From NCBI GenBank assembly GCA_002474345.1, contig DKQD01000008.1:1-18443 (forward strand): a stretch of 18,443 nt of DNA, in the 5' to 3' direction. This document shows, in pieces, positions 9,124 to 17,817 of this stretch. The notes below the pieces were generated by a model. It saw nothing but the letters and a program-made list of their open reading frames with translations, was not told the origin of the DNA and searched no databases. Position 1 is the first letter of the stretch, and each line of letters opens with the position of its first letter. This DNA is from Bacteriovoracaceae bacterium UBA7317. GTDB taxonomy: Bacteria; Bdellovibrionota; Bacteriovoracia; Bacteriovoracales; Bacteriovoracaceae. The translations under genes and the position numbers were made by a program.

Positions 9124-12100
9124 CTAAATGTCGTCATCGGTAAAAATATCACTCTGATTAATAATCTTATTTCTATTTTTTTGGTATTTTCTAACATCTT
9201 TTTTAATTTTGGTTTGTTCATCCATAATATCTGAATAAAGATCTTCAAGTTCTACGAATGCTTTACATTTAAGTTCAGTGATAAAATCTTTAGGATTAAT
9301 ACACTCATCCCTTGAGCTTCCTTCCCAACACATTCCATAAAATAGGTGTAAGTCACAAAGTTGATCATGAAAATAATCAAGCTTCAACTTCTTTGCATAT
9401 TCCTGTTCTGACAGCCTGTATAAAGTGTAACAAACAGCAAACGTATCTAATCGATCTTTCCAGTCTCCATTTTTGACATCTTTATACCCCTTAGGCTTGC
9501 AATCAAATGGATCACTATTATCACCTGCACAAGAAAAATGACAGTCCCAACCATCTCTTGGGTCTTCTTTTAATTTGCATATCCTGTTTTCCGTTCTTGT
9601 AGGTTCTTTTTCGGTTATGAATTTTTCAGGGCAATCAACTTTATCAAGGCATATTTTATATTCTTTATCAAAATACTCTTTTGAAAAGTCACACAGGCCA
9701 TCGTCTACCTTAACACACATTTTTTCGGATTTTGACCACATGTAGTCAGATTCGCAAAAGGGTGTTGGAGGAATTAATTTCTTAATTCTACTGTCACCCC
9801 AGCACCTCATATTGCCATTAGACTTAATCCCGCATGTGTGGCCTCTATAGGTAGATACGTAGCGAAAACCTTTGTTGAGGTTAGCGTTCTCTAAAAAACT
9901 ATTATCATTATGGAGTTGACCCCAACAAGAAATAACGCCTCCAGTGTTTATAGCACATGTTCTATTGAAGCCTGCAGAAAGTGCGATGAAGGACCTTTCA
10001 GACCAGGAATCAGGAGGTGTACTTTCTTTAAATTTATTACTTCCCCAGCAAACAGCTCCTCCATCGATTCTTAAGGCGCATGTATGGCCAAAACCTGCTG
10101 AAACAATAAAAAACAAATCATCGTTATCAGGTGGAGTTGCTTTGTTTAGAGCATTATTTCCCCAACACCTAATTTTTTTGTCTTGAGTAACTCCACATGC
10201 ATGATCGTGACCCAATGAAATACTATTAAAAGACTCATTTTTTGGAGGTTCTAATTGCCCTAGTCGATTTTCTCCCCAACAATAAGCGCTACCATCACTT
10301 TTCAATCCACAATTAAAAAAACTACCTGTGGACACAGAGATAAAGTTATTATTTTCGTCAGCGGGTATATTAAGTAAATTTTTAGAATTATTTTCATTCC
10401 CCCAACAATATATACTTCCATCATCTTTTAAACCACAGGAATGATTACTACTTGTTGAAACCATTTGGTAATTGCTTTTATCATTTTGTTCCCATGTTTT
10501 AAAAGGGTCGATTAATAAATTCTCTTTTAATAGAGGGTTCTCATTTTCCCCCCAACAATTTATTTTATCTTCATTATTAATTGCACATGAGTGGTACTGG
10601 TTAGTAGATAAGGTTTTATTTTCACTCATACAAGAAAGATAATGACTTATGGTACCTGGATCGGCTCCCTTCTTTTCAAAATGGCCCCATCCTGAAGGAT
10701 CATATTTATATGATTTCAAACATGAGGGACGCTTTTTACAGACTCTATCTTCGATTAATGTCGGGTTAGATACGGTCTTTCCGAGATCACATTTTTTCGC
10801 CTCTTGGCACTTTTTTGTTTTTAGGTTGAAAAAACTATCTGCGCCACACTCTGGTATGCCATCACATACATGGTCTGAAATTATAATTTTTTCTTTTTCT
10901 TGTTTACATCTCGTGTCTGCTACATCAAACAGTTGATCGCTCTCATTTCCTTTTTCACCATTCTCCTTCGGAACTTCATTATCTCCATAATGGCCAAAAC
11001 AAGAAACTTTTCCGTCAGTCTCTATTCCACAAATATTTTTGAATCCCACTTTAATGCTTTTATACCTTTTCTCATTTTCAGGCATAAGAATATTATATTT
11101 TCCCCATTTAAAGATAAATCCCCAACAAAATGGCTTTCCCGAACTCTTTAAAGCGCAAAAGGCCCTTGATCCACCAGTTAAGTCAACGAAACCTTCATTT
11201 TCCTCTGGTATATTTAAACCTTCCCAAGCATTATCTCCCCAGCATTTAAGAGTTCCATCTTTTTTAAGGCCACAAGTCACATTGTGACTTACGGCCAGCT
11301 TGATAAAGTTTTTATTTTCACTGGAGTTGTTTATATCACGAAAGAAGTTCTTCCAATTAAGAAAAGGCTTATTTTTTTTCGAGGACCACCAGCAATAAAC
11401 TTTTCCATTACCTTTAAGACCGCATGTATGGTAAAAGGCTGCTTCAACGGAAATAAAATCATTATTTTGTTCATCTGGTGGACTTTCTATTGGCCCGTTT
11501 TCGTTCCAGCACTGTATTTTTTTATTCTTTTTAATTGCACAAATCCACTGCCCCTCATGAGCAATTGAAAAATTAGAAAATGGCCCACCTTCTATTTGAT
11601 AAGTCTTTTTTTCTAGTGCCTTCCGACCGCTTATATTTGTATAGCATCTTATGGATCCATTTTGTTTAATTCCACAAAAATGGATACCCGGTTTTTCACT
11701 CTTTTCAATTTGAATTGATGTCCAAGGATTCTCTGTATCTTTTAGCATTCCGTAAAAGCCTTGATCTTTACCATAACTGTCAAAGCACAAGGGTTGATTG
11801 TCTTTATTTAATAAGCAGGTTAAATATCTTCCCACGGAAAGCGTGCTTCTTGTTTCTTTACAGATTAAAGAAATCTCATTTTTAGGAACCTCTAAATAGT
11901 TACTAAGTTCACTTATATATTGATTTTCACCACAGATTTTAAGATCCTTACAACTACTTCCATTTGGAGGTAAGTTTGTTATCTCATTAAACTTACCTTC
12001 TCCACAGGAAGTTGGTTTTATGCACTTATTTCCAGAACCCTGTTTAACTAATATTTCATAAGGTTCACAGACTACCTGGGGAGAACAAATATTGTCTGAA

Positions 12101-13287
12101 GTCAAAGTTGCAGGAGATGAAATATATTCATTTTCCGTACATTTTGTAATGGGACTACACTCTCTGTCAGAGTTTTTTGATTTTACTTTTGAAACCCATT
12201 CACCTTCTTTACATTCAGTTAGAGGTGAACAAATTTGATCTGAATCTAATGTAGCGGCTTTTGAAACCCATTCATTTTCCTTGCAAGGAGTAATTTTAGA
12301 GCATGTTCGGTCTAAAAATTCATTACCTTCTGAGGAGATATATTCATCATCTTTACAGTCAGTATATCCCAAACAGTGTAGAACTCCGTTTATATTAACC
12401 TTTCTTGTATTGGAACCACATGAGATTTCAGTTTTTTCCTCGGCCATCTGAAGCTTTTGAGATTTAATAAGATTCATTTTTTCTATAGCCTTTTTGTAAT
12501 TTTCTCTCTTTGCTTCAATTACAATTTTCTTTGTATTAAGATCATTTTTTAGAACATTGTTTTTACTTATAATAGCGGCTGAATCAATAATACATTCGTC
12601 CCTTTTTGATGCTAAACTTTTGTAACATGAGTTAAGTTTGATAAAACGCTCTTCATACTCTACCTCTAAGTTCTTAATTTCTTCTTTCTTGCTATTTTTT
12701 TGACAGGTAGATTGATCTTCTTCACATTTTCTTAATGGGGTGTTTATTTTTGTTTGTTCTGAAATGTAATGATCGAAAATCTTTTGATTAGATTTTAAAC
12801 TTGATAAGCATTTTTTTTGTTTACCCTCACAATTATAAAAATTTGATAAATGATTATTAAGACTCTTATCAAGGTTTTCTTTTTTATTTTTTTCAACTTT
12901 TTCTTCATTACATGATTGAGTTACGCTCTTTTTGCACTTCTTAACTTTTTCATCTATTTTAATTTTTTCGCTTCTTAGTTTTTCAAGATCACTGTTTAAT
13001 AAACTTTTACTATTATTACATGCCTCTTTATCCTCATCACATATTCCCAAGTCTTTTTCAATTCTATCCGATTGATATAACTTTTCTAATAATACTGTTT
13101 GAAGGCGCTTTTCTTCATTTAAACAGCTTACTTCCTTTTCAACACATTTATTTACCTTATTGTTACAATCTTGGATCATCTTTTTTGTAATACACTTTGC
13201 CGGCTTGGACGCTCCCAAAATCATTTTTGAATTAAAAGATAAAATTATAAATAAAATAATTTTTATATACAAAGAGAAAATGTTCAT
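9124..13287 (-). CDS. Giant exported Cys-rich protein: coiled coil, Cys repeats, two RCC1-type propellers
   Basis: This is a 1387-residue secreted protein. Residues 1-26 form a signal peptide, followed by S-K-P-A-K. Residues 30-285 form a charged coiled coil with CX6C pairs starting at C48, C83, C118, C153 and C188, exactly 35 apart (the C118 pair is CX7C). A CG-x13-C motif lies at 290-305. Seven Cys repeats of about 24 residues, similar to TNFR-type modules, begin at C311, C335, C359, C383, C407, C428 and C452. Two sets of seven RCC1-type repeats follow (about 478-780 and 890-1175), every repeat carrying a CX9C pair, separated by a Cys-rich linker. A Cys-rich C-terminal domain ends in acidic residues. 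The start at 13287 is chosen because GGAAGG lies 6 bases upstream; the TTG at 13293 touches that site. It is divergent from a gene for a shorter relative. Binding or surface adhesion is inferred. Confidence 0.85.
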   Translation of the reverse strand: MNIFSLYIKIILFIILSFNSKMILGASKPAKCITKKMIQDCNNKVNKCVEKEVSCLNEEKRLQTVLLEKLYQSDRIEKDLGICDEDKEACNNSKSLLNSDLEKLRSEKIKIDEKVKKCKKSVTQSCNEEKVEKNKKENLDKSLNNHLSNFYNCEGKQKKCLSSLKSNQKIFDHYISEQTKINTPLRKCEEDQSTCQKNSKKEEIKNLEVEYEERFIKLNSCYKSLASKRDECIIDSAAIISKNNVLKNDLNTKKIVIEAKRENYKKAIEKMNLIKSQKLQMAEEKTEISCGSNTRKVNINGVLHCLGYTDCKDDEYISSEGNEFLDRTCSKITPCKENEWVSKAATLDSDQICSPLTECKEGEWVSKVKSKNSDRECSPITKCTENEYISSPATLTSDNICSPQVVCEPYEILVKQGSGNKCIKPTSCGEGKFNEITNLPPNGSSCKDLKICGENQYISELSNYLEVPKNEISLICKETRSTLSVGRYLTCLLNKDNQPLCFDSYGKDQGFYGMLKDTENPWTSIQIEKSEKPGIHFCGIKQNGSIRCYTNISGRKALEKKTYQIEGGPFSNFSIAHEGQWICAIKKNKKIQCWNENGPIESPPDEQNNDFISVEAAFYHTCGLKGNGKVYCWWSSKKNKPFLNWKNFFRDINNSSENKNFIKLAVSHNVTCGLKKDGTLKCWGDNAWEGLNIPEENEGFVDLTGGSRAFCALKSSGKPFCWGFIFKWGKYNILMPENEKRYKSIKVGFKNICGIETDGKVSCFGHYGDNEVPKENGEKGNESDQLFDVADTRCKQEKEKIIISDHVCDGIPECGADSFFNLKTKKCQEAKKCDLGKTVSNPTLIEDRVCKKRPSCLKSYKYDPSGWGHFEKKGADPGTISHYLSCMSENKTLSTNQYHSCAINNEDKINCWGENENPLLKENLLIDPFKTWEQNDKSNYQMVSTSSNHSCGLKDDGSIYCWGNENNSKNLLNIPADENNNFISVSTGSFFNCGLKSDGSAYCWGENRLGQLEPPKNESFNSISLGHDHACGVTQDKKIRCWGNNALNKATPPDNDDLFFIVSAGFGHTCALRIDGGAVCWGSNKFKESTPPDSWSERSFIALSAGFNRTCAINTGGVISCWGQLHNDNSFLENANLNKGFRYVSTYRGHTCGIKSNGNMRCWGDSRIKKLIPPTPFCESDYMWSKSEKMCVKVDDGLCDFSKEYFDKEYKICLDKVDCPEKFITEKEPTRTENRICKLKEDPRDGWDCHFSCAGDNSDPFDCKPKGYKDVKNGDWKDRLDTFAVCYTLYRLSEQEYAKKLKLDYFHDQLCDLHLFYGMCWEGSSRDECINPKDFITELKCKAFVELEDLYSDIMDEQTKIKKDVRKYQKNRNKIINQSDIFTDDDI
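9763..10620 (-). repeat. Seven RCC1-type repeats, second propeller
   Basis: Seven copies of a blade with the core C-[GA]-[LIV]-x6-C-W-G are encoded here, with first cysteines at residues 901, 951, 993, 1031, 1070, 1111 and 1152. Seven repeats match one closed beta-propeller. Most units are followed by a Pro-containing loop such as PP. Confidence 0.85.
10950..11856 (-). repeat. Seven RCC1-type repeats, first propeller (more diverged)
   Basis: Seven units have first cysteines at residues 491, 538, 583, 622, 672, 711 and 753, each with the second cysteine exactly 10 positions later. The W-G after the second cysteine is degraded in several copies (C-F-D, C-Y-T, C-W-N, C-W-W, C-F-G), so this propeller is older or less constrained than the second. 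Confidence 0.8.
11857..12357 (-). repeat. Seven tandem Cys repeats of about 24 residues (TNFR-like)
   Basis: The units begin at cysteines 311, 335, 359, 383, 407, 428 and 452. The consensus is C-K-x2-E-[YW]-[IV]-S, a variable loop, S-D-x2-C-S-x-[IL]-T. The first five starts are exactly 24 residues apart. Related single units recur between the propellers (C833) and after the second propeller (C1219). Confidence 0.75.
12592..13194 (-). repeat. Coiled-coil CX6C module array, 35-residue period
   Basis: Within the giant protein, cysteine pairs C48/C55, C83/C90, C118/C126, C153/C160 and C188/C195 have first members exactly 35 residues apart. A longer pair C221/C232 follows. The sequence between is charged and helical. 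Confidence 0.8.
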
Positions 13288-13405
13288 TAACAACCTTCCA
13301 ATTTGGGCATTAACAAATCTAACATAACTTTAAATTTTTTATTAAAATTAAAAATAATCATATTAAAATAAACTTGATAAAGATCATGATAAAAGAGAGA
13401 ACGAA
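13288..13405. promoter_or_regulatory. Shared divergent promoter region of the two CX6C-protein genes
   Basis: This 118-base, extremely AT-rich gap separates the starts of the giant and the 318-residue gene, so their promoters must lie back to back here and could be coregulated. GATAAA occurs twice near 13376-13395, close to the plus-strand gene. No confident -35/-10 pair was assigned. Confidence 0.5.
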
Positions 13406-14362
13406 ATGAAGAAGTTATATTTACTCACATTTTTTCTCCTGTTCAATTTGGTTTCTTCTGGATTAAACGCAGGAGGAAAACCATCAAAACCAAAAAAAAC
13501 AAATAATTGCTTATCGAGCTATGAAAGACAGGACCCGCAGGCCGCAATTGATACTTGTAATGTTTTAGAAGAAGCATGTAATGAAAGATTGGATTCCTGT
13601 ACAAAAAGAAATGAGTCATCACTAAGTGAAATAAAAAAAGTTGAAGAAGAAATGGAGTTGCCTGCGGAAAATCTAAGGTCGTGTCAGGACAGTTTAAGAA
13701 ATTGTTACGACCAAAAAAATACTTTAACTTACGAAGAAAATAACCTTAAAAAAGAAATTAAAAAGTTGAATGACGAAAATAAAACGATTTGTAGTGAAGA
13801 TGAAAAATGCAATAATTCTTTGAGCTTATATCAAAAACAAAACTTGCAAACGGAGAAGATGATTAAAGAATATGATGGGAAATTAAAAATCTGCCAAAAG
13901 GAAACCGATTCTTGTCTTAGTGAAGAAAAAATATTGATCAGTAATACAAATGACGTTGAAAATAATATTCCAAACCTAGTAACCAGGCATGAAGAATGTA
14001 TCGAAAGTCTAACTTTATGCTTAGCTTATGAAAAAAACGCTCTTAGTCTCCTTCTTGTAAAGAGAAACCAAAATGAAATACAAAAGCAAAATTTAAAAAA
14101 TTGCCTAGAAGAAAGGGATAATATTCCCCAATGTAAGTCATACGATGGTTTTAATATTGAAGAAGTTAAAGGTGAAAATGAAAAGCTTAAAATAGAAAAT
14201 GAGAATTTAGACAAGGATTGGGAAGCAGAAGAAAAAGAACTCTCTGCAGAATTGGCAAGATTAACAGAAGAAGTGGAAAATATTCCAGAAGACTATAATT
14301 CTGTTTGTGGCGAAGGGACTTCATTAAGGTTAATAGATGGAAAAAGTTATTGTGTTGATTAA
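13406..14362 (+). CDS. Exported coiled-coil protein with CX6C pairs, short relative of the giant
   Basis: The 318-residue protein has a signal peptide (residues 1-22, likely cut before GGKPSKPK), then a highly charged coiled coil. Cysteine pairs start at C51, C58, C93, C129, C163, C198 and C233. From C58 on the spacing is 35, 36, 34, 35 and 35 residues, mostly CX6C. It ends with C301-G-x2-T-x4-I-D-G-x3-C316, the same spacing as C290-C305 in the divergent giant protein, and stops two residues later. It therefore corresponds to the giant's first 300 residues without repeats and propellers. A GAGAGA-type purine stretch precedes the ATG. A partner or spacer role for the giant is inferred. A broken paralogue that lost its C-terminus is the alternative, but the neat end at the motif argues against random truncation. 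Confidence 0.85.
   Translation: MKKLYLLTFFLLFNLVSSGLNAGGKPSKPKKTNNCLSSYERQDPQAAIDTCNVLEEACNERLDSCTKRNESSLSEIKKVEEEMELPAENLRSCQDSLRNCYDQKNTLTYEENNLKKEIKKLNDENKTICSEDEKCNNSLSLYQKQNLQTEKMIKEYDGKLKICQKETDSCLSEEKILISNTNDVENNIPNLVTRHEECIESLTLCLAYEKNALSLLLVKRNQNEIQKQNLKNCLEERDNIPQCKSYDGFNIEEVKGENEKLKIENENLDKDWEAEEKELSAELARLTEEVENIPEDYNSVCGEGTSLRLIDGKSYCVD
13556..14134 (+). repeat. Coiled-coil CX6C module array, about 35-residue period
   Basis: Cysteine pairs at residues 51/58/65, 93/100, 129/135, 163/170, 198/205 and 233/243 repeat every 34-36 residues. A typical unit reads L-[KR]-x-C-x6-C followed by a charged helix, as in the divergent giant. Confidence 0.8.
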
Positions 14363-14381
14363 AGAAAACCAAGATTTGAAA

Positions 14382-14462
14382 GAAACCTTTATCTGTCAAT
14401 TTTAATTTTACTATTTACCCTAACAGATCCATTTAAAGTAGCCGACTGAAAAGATAGGTTTC
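14382..14462. repeat. Nested inverted repeats in intergenic region
   Basis: GAAACCT (14382-14388) is the exact complement of AGGTTTC (14456-14462). Inside it ATCTGT (14391-14396) pairs with ACAGAT (14423-14428). This could fold into a branched RNA in the 218-base gap between the 318-residue gene and the next gene. The loops are long, so chance pairing is possible. Nothing else was seen in the gap except probable promoter sequence for the gene at 14581. Confidence 0.25.
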
Positions 14463-14580
14463 ATTTTAACTTTAAAAAGCTTAATTATTAAATTTTTTTC
14501 TAACCTTAAATCTTGTATTTCCCGATAGAAGTCTCAATGAATTAAGCTCTTATGGATTTATTAAAAGAGGTTTTATTCCA

Positions 14581-15603
14581 ATGAATCTTTACATTTATGC
14601 TTTATTATCTTTGATTGTATTTGAAGTTAAGGCACAAAAAATTGGAGAACATTCTTTAATAAACATTGCATTTCTTAAAAAGAACCCTAAAAAAATGGAA
14701 TTAGCAAAGCTTTTATGGAGGACAGAACCTGTTAATGTGGATGAAATCTATAATCAATTGGGACTTGAAAAAGAAAATAAAGGAAATTTTAAATTAAAAG
14801 GAAGACTAGCTTTAAGAAATGGTATTGGTTTTAAGACAAGAAATCCATATTTCCCAAGGTATAGTATTGAATATAAAAAGGGGATAAAAAGGTTTCCAGG
14901 TTTAAAAGATCCTATTAAAAAAAGAAAAATTGAATTCGAAGTCAAAAGAAAAAAGACTATAAAATTTTATAATCAAGAACAAATAACAAGCTGGTTTTTA
15001 AATCTTGAAAAAAGTGGGAGTGACGAATCTAGAGAAGTTTGTGCAATAAAGTTTATTGATAACTCTGATAAAAAATATAAATTTAAAACATTTAAAAATG
15101 CTGATGAAGCAAGAAAAAGTGGTTGGTTTATTACTCATAAGTATAAGTGCGGAACCTGCTCTTCTTTAAAGGATCTTGCTGTTTATATGGCAAAGCCTGA
15201 CCTTACTGACCCAGTTAGATTCTGTACAAAAAAGCCAACTTTAAAAATGATTAAAAGTTGTCTTATGAATAAAGTGGGTTTTTCTGAGAGGTGTTCTGAA
15301 AGTTGGACCTATAATGCTGATCATACTAAAAAAAGGTGTATGGGAATATGCATGAAAGATTATGGACTTGTTAACATCTTAACAAATAATATGCAGGGTT
15401 CAAATGTTGATAAAGATGGAAATTTAAAGCCATGTATTGCTTGCGATGAGTATAGGTCTGGACCTGGTTTTAAGTATGCAGCTGCTAGAACCAGAAGGTG
15501 GTCAGGTCTTGTTTCCGCAATTAAAAGAGGATCAGGCGAAGTCTATAAAGTGAACCACTTTAAATATTTTAAAAAAACCAAAGATTGGAAATGGTTCGAT
15601 TAA
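14581..15603 (+). CDS. Exported Cys-rich protein, unknown function
   Basis: The 340-residue protein has a signal peptide (residues 1-18, V-K-A before QKIG). A basic N-terminal half is followed by a Cys-rich half with ten cysteines at 154, 190, 193, 215, 227, 238, 253, 257, 285 and 288, including CGTC (190-193) and CIAC (285-288). The segment CGTCSSLKDLAVYM with P-D-L-T-D-P-V-R and C215 looks like a conserved family core, but I cannot name the family. CxxC pairs could be redox-active or bind metal; disulfides are more likely in an exported protein. GAGG lies 10 bases upstream of the ATG. The next gene starts 9 bases after its stop, so the two form an operon. Neither resembles the CX6C proteins on either side. 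Confidence 0.8.
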   Translation: MNLYIYALLSLIVFEVKAQKIGEHSLINIAFLKKNPKKMELAKLLWRTEPVNVDEIYNQLGLEKENKGNFKLKGRLALRNGIGFKTRNPYFPRYSIEYKKGIKRFPGLKDPIKKRKIEFEVKRKKTIKFYNQEQITSWFLNLEKSGSDESREVCAIKFIDNSDKKYKFKTFKNADEARKSGWFITHKYKCGTCSSLKDLAVYMAKPDLTDPVRFCTKKPTLKMIKSCLMNKVGFSERCSESWTYNADHTKKRCMGICMKDYGLVNILTNNMQGSNVDKDGNLKPCIACDEYRSGPGFKYAAARTRRWSGLVSAIKRGSGEVYKVNHFKYFKKTKDWKWFD

Positions 15604-15612
15604 GGAGATTGT

Positions 15613-16581
15613 ATGAAAAAATTAATGGTTCTATTGTTTGCAATGTTATCTTTTAGTGCTTTTTCATCAGAAGCCAAAAAAGTTTTTCTTAACGACACTT
15701 ATTGGAAAAAGAAAATCCCTTCTTGGAAGGAGTACAAGCTAAAAGCTGGTAATACTTTTATTACATCTCCCGCATGTAGTCAGGCTGCTGCAAGTGTGAT
15801 AGGAGGACTTACTGCAGAGAGAGCTGCAATAAAGGGGAAAAAACCAAAGCATGCTTATAATATTGTTTCTCCTATTTTTAACTACCTTAAATCAGGTTAT
15901 ATTTATTATACAAAGCAAAGAGGTTATGAAAAGTATAATCAGCTTATTGAAGAGGCTTCTGTCGTCATTGCTGGTAAAGATCACGTAGTTAAAACTAAAA
16001 GATTTGATCACTTTGCCAAAAAAGTTATGAAAAAAGCTGTTGAAGATACTGTTAAAATGAAAAGTGTTGAGTTAACGGCCAATGGAACATATAGATATAT
16101 TCCTAACGGTCAAAATAAAGAAGTTAAATTAAAAAAGGTTAACCGGCTTCATATTGCGACAAATCTTCTTATGGGGGATGCTGCTGGATATTTCTGTTCT
16201 TTTGATGTTTTAAGAATGGCCGATAAATCTCTTAATTTTAATAAGGTTAAGATCCTTAAAAAAAGTGCCCTTGTAGGTCTTTTTCAAACAGGGCCTATGA
16301 AAAGCAGAAAATTTATGGCAAGTGCTAAGAAGTTTGAAGAGCTTAGGCTTTATGTAAATTACCTCAAGGAAAAAAAGGAAATCACAACAAGTGGGGCTGG
16401 GTACGCTCAGCATTGGAAAAAAGTTACTTTTAAGAAGCAGGACAAATTAAGAAAGGGTTATGAAAAACAAATAAAAGTTATTCTTATGGAAGCTGATGAT
16501 AAGTTGATCGCTTCTCAATTTAATAAGCTAATAGATAAAATGAGTGATGATCATTGGAAAAAAGACTTGGATGATTATTAA
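15613..16581 (+). CDS. Exported basic protein, unknown function, second gene of operon
   Basis: The 322-residue protein has a clear signal peptide (residues 1-21, S-S-E-A before KKVF). The mature part is Lys-rich, mostly helical in appearance, with only two cysteines (C55 and C195), which could form one disulfide. It contains a small-residue helix (CSQAAASVIGGLTAERAA, residues 55-72) and a second one around LLMGDAAGYFC (185-195). I recognise no family. AGGAG overlaps the preceding stop codon and sits 5 bases before the ATG, so translation is likely coupled to the gene at 14581. The pair probably works together in the periplasm or outside the cell. A strong terminator follows about 20 bases after the stop. 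Confidence 0.82.
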   Translation: MKKLMVLLFAMLSFSAFSSEAKKVFLNDTYWKKKIPSWKEYKLKAGNTFITSPACSQAAASVIGGLTAERAAIKGKKPKHAYNIVSPIFNYLKSGYIYYTKQRGYEKYNQLIEEASVVIAGKDHVVKTKRFDHFAKKVMKKAVEDTVKMKSVELTANGTYRYIPNGQNKEVKLKKVNRLHIATNLLMGDAAGYFCSFDVLRMADKSLNFNKVKILKKSALVGLFQTGPMKSRKFMASAKKFEELRLYVNYLKEKKEITTSGAGYAQHWKKVTFKKQDKLRKGYEKQIKVILMEADDKLIASQFNKLIDKMSDDHWKKDLDDY

Positions 16582-16601
16582 AAATTAGTGGGTATTAAAA
16601 T

Positions 16602-16626
16602 AAGCGCCTCACTCGAGGCGCTTTTT
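16602..16626 (+). terminator. Strong intrinsic terminator of the two-gene operon
   Basis: AAGCGCCTC (16602-16610) pairs perfectly with GAGGCGCTT (16615-16623) around the loop ACTC, and five T occupy 16622-16626. It is the only GC-rich hairpin in this AT-rich stretch and lies just after the gene ending at 16581. Confidence 0.93.
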
Positions 16627-16775
16627 CAAATAAATTTTATTCAAATAAATTTAATTTCTTTTAAATATAAAAATCTACAATTTTAAAAAAATTGCGGCTA
16701 AAGTAAGCAAAAAAAAAGTTTATTTTTAAAATATGTTAATATTCATTTAGTAGTGATTTGAACTTGGAGAGAGGG
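16627..16775 (+). promoter_or_regulatory. Upstream region of the IITTNG-repeat gene
   Basis: This AT-rich region lies between the terminator and the repeat-protein gene. It must carry that gene's promoter, since the preceding operon is terminated. GGAG at 16766-16769 is the ribosome site. TTGCGGCTAAAGTAAGC at about 16692 stands out as less AT-rich and might include a promoter element, but no -10 could be fixed. Confidence 0.4.
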
Positions 16776-17813
16776 ATGGAAAAAAGGGATTTAACGAATT
16801 CTTTTTTGCGGTTTACTTATTTTTTACCAATTATTCTTTTAATTCCATTCCTAAGCTATGGTGGGGCAAAAAAACCAATGAAGCCCGTGAGCTCTGACTC
16901 CAATCAGGAATTAAAGAGTTGTGAAGAGGGCCTAAAATCTTGTAGTAAAAGCAAGTCTAGCCTTTCAGCACAAATTTTGGCAGCTAAGGATGACATTAAA
17001 AATCTTAAAGCGGAGATTGAAAATTATAAAATAACGATTGCTGATCTTAGAAATAAATTGAGTGAGAGTAATAATGTTTCAGATTCTAAATCAGGCATTA
17101 TAACAACGAACGGTATTATAACGACTAATGGACTTAAGACAGGAATCATAACAACCAACGGTACAATAGATAAAGGATGGAAACCTATGGCTGGCTATAA
17201 AGGTTGGGTTCCTGAAGTTGGTAAGGGGACAGAAGAAGCGTCCTCTAAAGCGGATAACTTAGTCGGAGAGTGGATACCTGAAGATGATGGAATGACTGCT
17301 GGCTGGGTTCCCGAAGTTGGAAAGGTCGTTGGAAAGTGGACAGGTAATGATAATATGTCCGGCGCCTTAATTATGAATTCGCAAGGAAGCGTTGGAATCA
17401 TTACAACTAATGGTAAACAGGCTGGGGAGTGGATTCCTTACGCTGGAATGGTTGTAGGTTCCTTTACTGATAAAAAAGGTAAGACTGGTGTTATAACTAA
17501 AAAAGGCGATACCATGGGTATTATTACAACCAATGGGAAATTCGTGGGTGAATTTATTCCAGAAAATGGTAAAACAGGCATAATCACAACAAACGGAAAT
17601 CAGGTAAGCATAATTTTCACAAATGGAAGAGTTGTTGAAGATAATATTGAATCAAAAATAGATCAAAAGGGGTGGGTGCCTGAAGTTGGATCAAAGGTTG
17701 GAGAATGGGTTGGTGAAGATGGAAAAAGAGGAATCATTACAACTAATGGTAATAAATTAAATATTGTAAGGGGTAATGGAATTCCTGTTATGGAAGTCAA
17801 TATACAGCAATGA
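16776..17813 (+). CDS. Exported repeat protein: CX6C coiled coil plus IITTNG/WVPEVG repeat domain
   Basis: The 345-residue protein has a signal peptide (residues 1 to about 28), a mature start GGAKKPMKP, one CX6C pair (C49/C56, LKSCEEGLKSC) and a coiled coil to about residue 100. This N-terminus resembles the two CX6C proteins at 9124-14362. From residue 107 almost to the end it consists of about 21 units of 9-12 residues, mainly hydrophobic-I/V-x-x-x-G-x2-3-G. There are two main versions: IITTNG (seven exact copies) and WVPEVG or relatives such as WIPEDD, FIPENG and WIPYAG. The domain should be beta-rich, perhaps a meander or solenoid distantly like MORN-type repeats, but I recognise no named family. 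The start at 16776 has GGAG 6 bases upstream; the in-frame TTG at 16758 is rejected. A surface or binding role is inferred. Confidence 0.85.
   Translation: MEKRDLTNSFLRFTYFLPIILLIPFLSYGGAKKPMKPVSSDSNQELKSCEEGLKSCSKSKSSLSAQILAAKDDIKNLKAEIENYKITIADLRNKLSESNNVSDSKSGIITTNGIITTNGLKTGIITTNGTIDKGWKPMAGYKGWVPEVGKGTEEASSKADNLVGEWIPEDDGMTAGWVPEVGKVVGKWTGNDNMSGALIMNSQGSVGIITTNGKQAGEWIPYAGMVVGSFTDKKGKTGVITKKGDTMGIITTNGKFVGEFIPENGKTGIITTNGNQVSIIFTNGRVVEDNIESKIDQKGWVPEVGSKVGEWVGEDGKRGIITTNGNKLNIVRGNGIPVMEVNIQQ
17094..17780 (+). repeat. In-frame tandem repeats of 9-12 codons (IITTNG / WVPEVG units)
   Basis: About 21 consecutive units lie in the coding frame. Seven encode exactly I-I-T-T-N-G using six different codon combinations, and three encode G-W-V-P-E-V-G, each with different codons. 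Other units are intermediate (V-I-T-K-K-G, I-I-F-T-N-G, F-T-D-K-K-G). The DNA identity between units is modest, so these are protein-level repeats. Confidence 0.88.
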
Positions 17814-17817
17814 GCTT

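Follow-up and report, generated by a model that had tools for sequence, protein, structure and literature searches.

The 18,443-nucleotide stretch of Bacteriovoracaceae bacterium UBA7317 analysed here, hereafter the window (G000:C90:1-18443), is part of a 39,001-base contig and encodes two divergently transcribed, apparently exported proteins, a giant protein of 1387 residues and a 318-residue neighbour, p318, whose cysteines recur with a regularity that is both real and strong. The deeper rule of this regularity is the seven-residue heptad, and the 35-residue recurrence of cysteine pairs that had been noticed in a sequence-only reading of the same DNA is one instance of it. The best explanation, and on balance a probable one, is that the two proteins form an exported stalk, a parallel, in-register coiled coil along which the cysteines would be joined into a ladder of interchain disulfides.

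With residues of the giant numbered from its ATG at 13287, as in the sequence-only reading (a TTG start lies two codons upstream), the cysteines ahead of its C-terminal head fall at residues 32, 41, 48, 55, 83, 90, 118, 126, 153, 160, 188, 195, 221, 232, 290 and 305, and those of p318 at residues 35, 51, 58, 65, 93, 100, 129, 135, 163, 170, 198, 205, 233, 243, 301 and 316. The first cysteines of the pairs had been placed correctly, at 48, 83, 118, 153 and 188 in the giant and at 58, 93, 129, 163, 198 and 233 in p318, and each pair had been described as nearly always CX6C; this holds for four of five pairs in the giant, the third being CX7C, and for four of six in p318, where the others are CX5C and CX9C. 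There is also more to the pattern than had been listed. An extra cysteine is found seven residues upstream of the first pair (giant 41, p318 51), the giant has a sixth pair at 221/232, and a CX14C motif ends the helical part of each protein.

That the 35-residue recurrence lies beyond chance is borne out by random placement of 14 cysteines. The giant has six pairs of cysteines that are 35 apart and p318 has seven, against random means of 0.66 and 0.68, and the observed count was reached in none of the 20,000 placements made for each protein. When multiples of seven are counted instead, 8 of the 14 spacings qualify in the giant over residues 26-290 (1.7 expected, reached in 7 of 100,000 placements) and 9 of 13 in p318 over residues 23-300 (1.6 expected, reached in none of 100,000). 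As a control, other open reading frames (ORFs) of at least 150 residues and at least six cysteines were taken from 11 fetched stretches; frames of more than 10 masked residues were passed over, and the remaining ORFs of the window were not counted. Of this set, 25 reach no more than 5 of 14 (RCC1 repeats) or 3 of 7, whereas the 26th, which encodes a 912-residue protein from a genome of the same genus, scores 24 of 35 along the entire protein.

Taken in order, 15 of the first 16 cysteines correspond between the giant and p318 at offsets within 9-12 residues, the full series of p318-minus-giant offsets being 3, 10, 10, 10, 10, 10, 11, 9, 10, 10, 10, 10, 12, 11, 11 and 11. A BLAST comparison of the two N-terminal parts gives E 6e-4 as a single comparison. 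Shuffles that keep the cysteines and the heptad phase reach the same score in 488 of 2000 cases, and because they score as high, no common sequence is demonstrable beyond the cysteine frame and the heptad composition. Alignments of the two proteins made with MAFFT slip by one repeat unit, and there too phase-preserving shuffles score as high. Since the cysteines match whilst the remaining sequence does no better than shuffles, it is the cysteine frame that appears to be maintained. This suggests either that the two proteins diverged from one gene with the frame kept or that the same constraint produced the frame in both, and on either account the frame would be the functional element.

The 912-residue protein is linked to this locus through p351, a third apparently exported protein encoded 2.4 kb downstream of p318. 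A KKP stretch follows the hydrophobic N-terminus of p351, and seven GIITTNG copies together with several GEW/GEF and WxPEVG stretches follow its short coiled coil; no Pfam family was found in it over cut-off. The orthologue of p351 in a second genome, G001, is 89% identical and retains both cysteines. When 59 relatives, the source genome G000 included, were searched with p351, matches were found in three, all of one genus; the one in G002, weak at E 9.1e-4, is to the 912-residue protein (L028:3808-6543:-). A comparison of the latter with 129 family genomes, in which at most seven candidates were scored per genome, returned p351 of G001 (E 6e-6), p351 of G000 (E 3e-4) and one of its own neighbours, with no match in other genera. 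As far as sequence similarity goes, p351 is the only bridge, and only to the 912-residue protein.

Of the 25 spacings between the 26 cysteines within residues 1-480 of this protein, 22 are multiples of seven (eight of 14, seven of 7, four of 21 and one each of 35, 42 and 63, the exceptions being 10, 10 and 8), where 3.1 would be expected and the maximum among 100,000 placements was 12. Fourteen cysteines keep a single phase over the 253 residues from 206 to 458, at spacings of 7 to 42. Residues 208-575 form a run of 368 residues without proline that has 13 cysteines inside it; glycines do occur there, and the longest stretch free of both proline and glycine is 356-484. The step of this ladder is not 35, and the idea that 35 is an essential number is thereby lost, as a protein of the same genus keeps the heptad phase without it. 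Pfam gave no match to the 912-residue protein at E 0.1, and its C-terminal 313 residues are matched in G002 only, one of the 129 genomes. It is followed, within L028 2-3783, by a 346-residue protein and then a 904-residue one that is cut, the former also having the domain found at the C-terminus of the ladder protein (E 2e-5). As the ladder sequences do not find one another, the kinship of the ladders rests on their architecture.

The phase of the cysteines is also that of the hydrophobic residues. With phase counted from the preceding cysteine, and the cysteines themselves excluded, the frequency of strong hydrophobics at the cysteine phase or four residues on is 0.48 in the giant, 0.55 in p318 and 0.52 in the 912-residue protein, against 0.17, 0.18 and 0.16 elsewhere. 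This enrichment was reached in none of 20,000 permutations for each protein, and 0/4 is the best of the 21 phase pairs in all three. Because hydrophobics fill the cysteine phase and +4, the cysteines are assigned to heptad position d, in the core, and by sequence phase all three proteins place several cysteines at core positions of a coiled coil. The hydrophobic spectrum of p318 has its peak at 3.5 residues, with a height of 2.18 against 0.52 for the next.

Built on the observed cysteine placement, core phase and gene layout, the proposed mechanism is one in which the N-terminal 250-290 residues of the giant and of p318 form an exported coiled-coil stalk. The chains would be exported and would then pair in parallel and in register, such that each d cysteine faces its own counterpart, and the facing cysteines would be oxidised after export to interchain disulfides. 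The resulting covalent ladder would stiffen the stalk and make it difficult to unfold. The stalk of the giant would carry cysteine-rich modules of TNFR-like type, repeats of the RCC1 type and a C-terminal part, which together are probably a binding head, whilst p318 may be either a headless partner of the giant or a separate homodimer. Export was judged by eye from hydrophobic N-terminal segments, and the source genome has eight DsbA-family places over cut-off. A bolder version, possible though doubtful as a whole, is that these are a genus-specific family of covalently laddered surface stalks built from headed giant chains and headless p318 chains. The two kinds of chain, whose ladder cysteines correspond one to one and whose genes diverge from a shared intergenic region, would be zipped into heteromers locked by disulfides, with the number of heads set by the chain ratio and with rung number and spacing free to evolve in seven-residue steps.

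A number of observations weigh against the parallel disulfide ladder. One cysteine of each third pair (giant 126, p318 129) breaks the phase, as does part of the last pair, the full list of out-of-phase cysteines beyond the third pairs being 32, 221, 232, 290 and 305 in the giant and 35, 243, 301 and 316 in p318. Residues 41-290 of the giant have no spectral peak at 3.5 residues (0.10 at 3.5, 0.85 at 3.45), for which phase jumps at the irregular pairs are the suggested reason. Prolines and glycines are found inside both ladders (giant G81, G155 and P184; p318 P86, G158, P189 and P241), so the rods may be jointed. The ladder of the 912-residue protein changes phase three times before residue 206 and on its own does not retrieve the giant or p318, even at E 10; nor, at E 1 within the source genome, does p318 retrieve the giant. 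DsbB was without a match at E 1e-3 in that genome, which is 85.6% complete, and VKOR was not searched for.

Structural models add to these points. Single-sequence AlphaFold2 monomers are of low confidence, with a mean predicted local distance difference test (pLDDT) score of 63.5 for giant 26-312 and 57.9 for p318 23-318. They are nearly all helix, ending in two strands at the CX14C, with the helix broken at about 82-86, 128-131 and 191-199 in the giant and at about 83-86, 180 and 239-250 in p318, where one helix of 93 residues (about 87-179) holds six cysteines. Such models are too weak to decide helix orientation. In a crude coiled-coil calculation, the Cβ distance between d and d' is 4.4-5.1 Å in parallel pairing, against 5.5-6.1 Å in antiparallel pairing with a-d' layers, but at other axial offsets antiparallel d-d' distances come to 3.5-4.3 Å, and for this reason geometry does not settle the orientation and only mildly favours the parallel pair. 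Little weight is placed on this calculation, which has Cα distances of 7.6-8.3 Å at a and 4.9-5.7 Å at d, two positions that differ less in real dimers.

The sequence-only reading had offered a disulfide ladder in two forms, one linking parallel helices in an oligomer and the other stapling stacked helical hairpins. A disulfide ladder is still the best reading, and it is the parallel oligomer that is favoured by the heptad core phase. Hairpins, in which 35-residue helix-turn-helix units would be held by intrachain disulfides as in an Hcp/Sel1-like or CagY-like repeat, are unlikely, because the cysteines lie in the core at one heptad position and the 912-residue protein keeps the phase and not the step. 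The hydrophobics follow the heptad, with 0/4 as the best phase pair, and neither the 13 cysteines in the proline-free run of the 912-residue protein nor the long six-cysteine helix in the p318 model fits such units, even if helix breaks do lie near cysteine pairs in the low-confidence model of the giant and three ladder units have prolines at unit positions 26-31. Pfam at E up to 1 lists no Sel1 or tetratricopeptide family; TPR_MLP1_2, a coiled-coil family, appears at E 0.07. The length of 35 is near the 34 residues of the tetratricopeptide repeat (TPR) and the 36-38 of the Sel1-like repeat (SLR), and precedents for regular cysteines exist in Helicobacter. The Hcp proteins have SLRs with regular disulfides in the Hcp branch, but these join repeats of one chain in a super-helix of alpha/alpha motifs (PMC3851747), unlike the heptad pattern of the giant and p318. 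The repeat region of H. pylori CagY has helical repeats with regular cysteines and cysteine-dependent multimers, but its motifs are other ones, mutants at hydrophobic positions argue against a coiled coil, and it is described as the sheath of a type IV secretion filament (PMC2581425).

An antiparallel disulfide-linked pair, or one very long hairpin, is less likely again. The periodic frames of the giant and p318 are compatible with their mirror images (10 of 13 cysteines within one residue, 8 of 13 exactly), which suits this arrangement, but being regular these two frames do not discriminate. The frame of the 912-residue protein is irregular and should mirror itself if it folded back as a hairpin; over residues 206-458 the best centre mirrors 10 of 14 cysteines against a null mean of 8.4 (range 6-12 in 400 draws), which is no signal and speaks against both arrangements; cysteines at d only would, moreover, be expected to face a' in layered antiparallel packing. 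Slightly more probable, though still improbable, is that there is no covalent ladder and that cysteine is merely tolerated at d in a fast-evolving coiled coil. The helices are rich in K, E and N, no conservation is detectable in their sequence apart from the cysteines, and Pfam and NCBIfam yield just weak generic coiled-coil matches, all of which would suit this explanation, whereas the ordered match of 15 of 16 cysteines between the giant and p318 and the low counts in the 25 control ORFs would not. Copper storage proteins are four-helix bundles lined with cysteines that bind Cu(I), and with cysteines lining one core position of a helical rod, and many thiols per chain, the core could similarly bind copper or zinc as thiolates. 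This we consider the least probable explanation, as the proteins are apparently exported and DsbA-family proteins are encoded in the genome, Pfam at E up to 1 lists no copper storage family, and no copper or zinc storage gene was recognised by eye among the ORFs of the contig, most of which had no family search.

The sequence-only reading knew of no named family with this pattern, and the ladder is indeed without a Pfam or NCBIfam match over cut-off. The Pfam listing extends to E 1, where HMMER's filters drop most matches above 0.1, and the p318 scores in NCBIfam lie far below the curated cut-offs (SMC_prok_B, 17.7 bits against 567; TIGR04523, 19.6 against 270). In a set of 5.8 billion proteins p318 retrieved only its own cluster (three members, 15 contigs; 2661 candidates), and residues 1-312 of the giant retrieved nothing at E 1, the giant itself included (7740 candidates, their lengths tied to that of the full-length giant). 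With a two-row profile, for which the 7993 candidates sharing most words were scored, p318 alone was found. Among the 59 relative genomes the N-terminus of the giant matched only its own, and p318 matched its own and G010 (95 residues, E 8e-4), where the matching frame has no ladder; among the 129 family genomes profile A2 matched the source genome alone. Plasmids gave no match for p318 or the 912-residue ladder and phages none for p318, and in solved structures the best E for p318 was 0.56, with nothing for the giant and 912-residue ladders at E up to 10. A match in G053 to the C-terminal part of the giant (E 1.7e-4) belongs to a 1090-residue protein that by eye resembles a DNA methylase and was taken as chance. 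In G018 and G026 there are proteins with RCC1 repeats of the type found in the head of the giant, and these were set aside as ladder relatives, no ladder being present in the frames seen, some of which are cut by contig ends. Misses of this kind are what fast-evolving coiled coils would be expected to give and are no proof of absence; as far as the searches reach, the ladder appears confined to one genus.

The ladder is a bacterial version of a structural principle that is already known. The CX9C twin (CHCH) proteins have cysteines paired on helix faces and are small intrachain hairpins; the paired helix-face cysteines are the likeness, and no such Pfam family is listed for the giant or p318. 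By analogy, the nearest proven case is mouse PLVAP (PV-1), an extracellular dimer whose two chains form a parallel coiled coil and are joined symmetrically by interchain disulfides at residues 142, 153, 178, 199 and 224, and thus by several disulfides along a rod, five in 89 residues (PMC10083539), an arrangement that is only proposed for the giant and p318. PLVAP differs in being an animal type II membrane protein and, on the positions given in that source, in having spacings of 11, 25, 21 and 25, with no CX6C pairs or 35-residue period. Neither the Pfam matches (E up to 1) nor the solved chains (E up to 10) include its family. A bacterial disulfide-laddered coiled coil was not found in the literature at the level of titles and the openings of abstracts, a coverage outside which most subscription papers fall.

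The features of the locus are collected in Table 1. Both CX14C modules read C-G-x-x-T-x6-G-x3-C, and p318 stops two residues past its own, at the point where the giant continues into the head. The head (window 9838-12375) is itself cysteine-patterned, with CX5C pairs mostly every 24 residues, followed in the RCC1-type repeats by recurring pairs at a distance of 10. Pfam RCC1_2 matches the giant in its head only, in ten stretches, with 202.3 bits against a cut-off of 22; the broader WD40_RLD model stays below its cut-off (115 bits against 150), as does TNFR_c6 (25.2 bits against a curated 29.4).

Table 1. Features of the giant/p318 locus, with positions in the window
Feature	Positions	Strand	Basis or remark
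Giant protein, apparently exported, of 1387 aa (ATG start at 13287) or 1389 aa (TTG start)	9124..13293	-	Open frame; 80 cysteines
Giant, RCC1-type repeat region with recurrent CX9C pairs	9838..11790	-	Limits approximate, other segments between
Giant, TNFR-like CX5C modules, residues 305-491	11815..12375	-	Mostly 6/18 Cys spacing
Giant, CX14C module at end of helical part, residues 290-305	12373..12420	-	Aligned to p318 C-terminus
Giant, cysteine ladder, residues 41-232	12592..13167	-	8/14 spacings multiples of 7, with hydrophobics in the Cys phase and four residues on
Intergenic region between the giant and p318 genes, 112 bp from TTG	13294..13405	.	Open frames
p318, apparently exported, 318 aa: ladder and terminal CX14C, headless	13406..14362	+	Open frame
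p318, cysteine ladder, residues 51-243	13556..14134	+	9/13 spacings multiples of 7
p318, terminal CX14C, residues 301-316	14306..14353	+	Aligned with the CX14C module of the giant
p351, also apparently exported: a single CX6C rung (residues 55/62) followed by a short coiled coil lacking cysteines and by GIITTNG repeats	16758..17813	+	

From its ATG the coding span of the giant is 9127-13287 on the minus strand, and the gap to p318, on the plus strand, is 112 bp when measured from the TTG and 118 bp from the ATG. Promoter-like sites are not enriched in 12900-14700 (9 against 7.7 in shuffles, sd 2.9). Downstream of p318, p340 and p322 (window 14581-16581), two apparently exported proteins, form with p351 a block that is common to G001 at 88% nucleotide identity (window 14605-17815); for p340 and p322 there is no Pfam family over cut-off and no NCBIfam match at E 0.1. 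In G001 the position of the giant and p318, upstream of the shared block, is taken by a different divergent pair, which encodes proteins of 462 and 174 residues (L027 7090-9336). A copy elsewhere in G001, which is 72% complete, is possible, and sequence searches of the relatives found none. By eye, the 462-residue protein has a HELGHxxGxxH-like metalloprotease motif; the tail of the 174-residue protein is basic and GRG-rich. Elsewhere, a CobW-like ORF is found at L021:2022-2915, about 24 kb away, and at L020 8841-12885 two adjoining minus-strand ORFs, with XdhC-like and MobA-like ORFs beside them, resemble by eye the large and iron-sulfur subunits of a molybdenum hydroxylase.

If the parallel disulfide ladder is correct, bacteria would make long stapled coiled-coil stalks by repeating cysteine at one heptad position, a design that is proven in animal PLVAP. 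Because little beyond the cysteines and the heptad is shared, a sequence test based on cysteine spacing modulo seven, matched to the phase of the hydrophobic core, works in cases that homology search misses. The same rule could uncover similar stalks among other orphan exported proteins, and laddered stalks of this kind would be natural templates for very stable protein rods.

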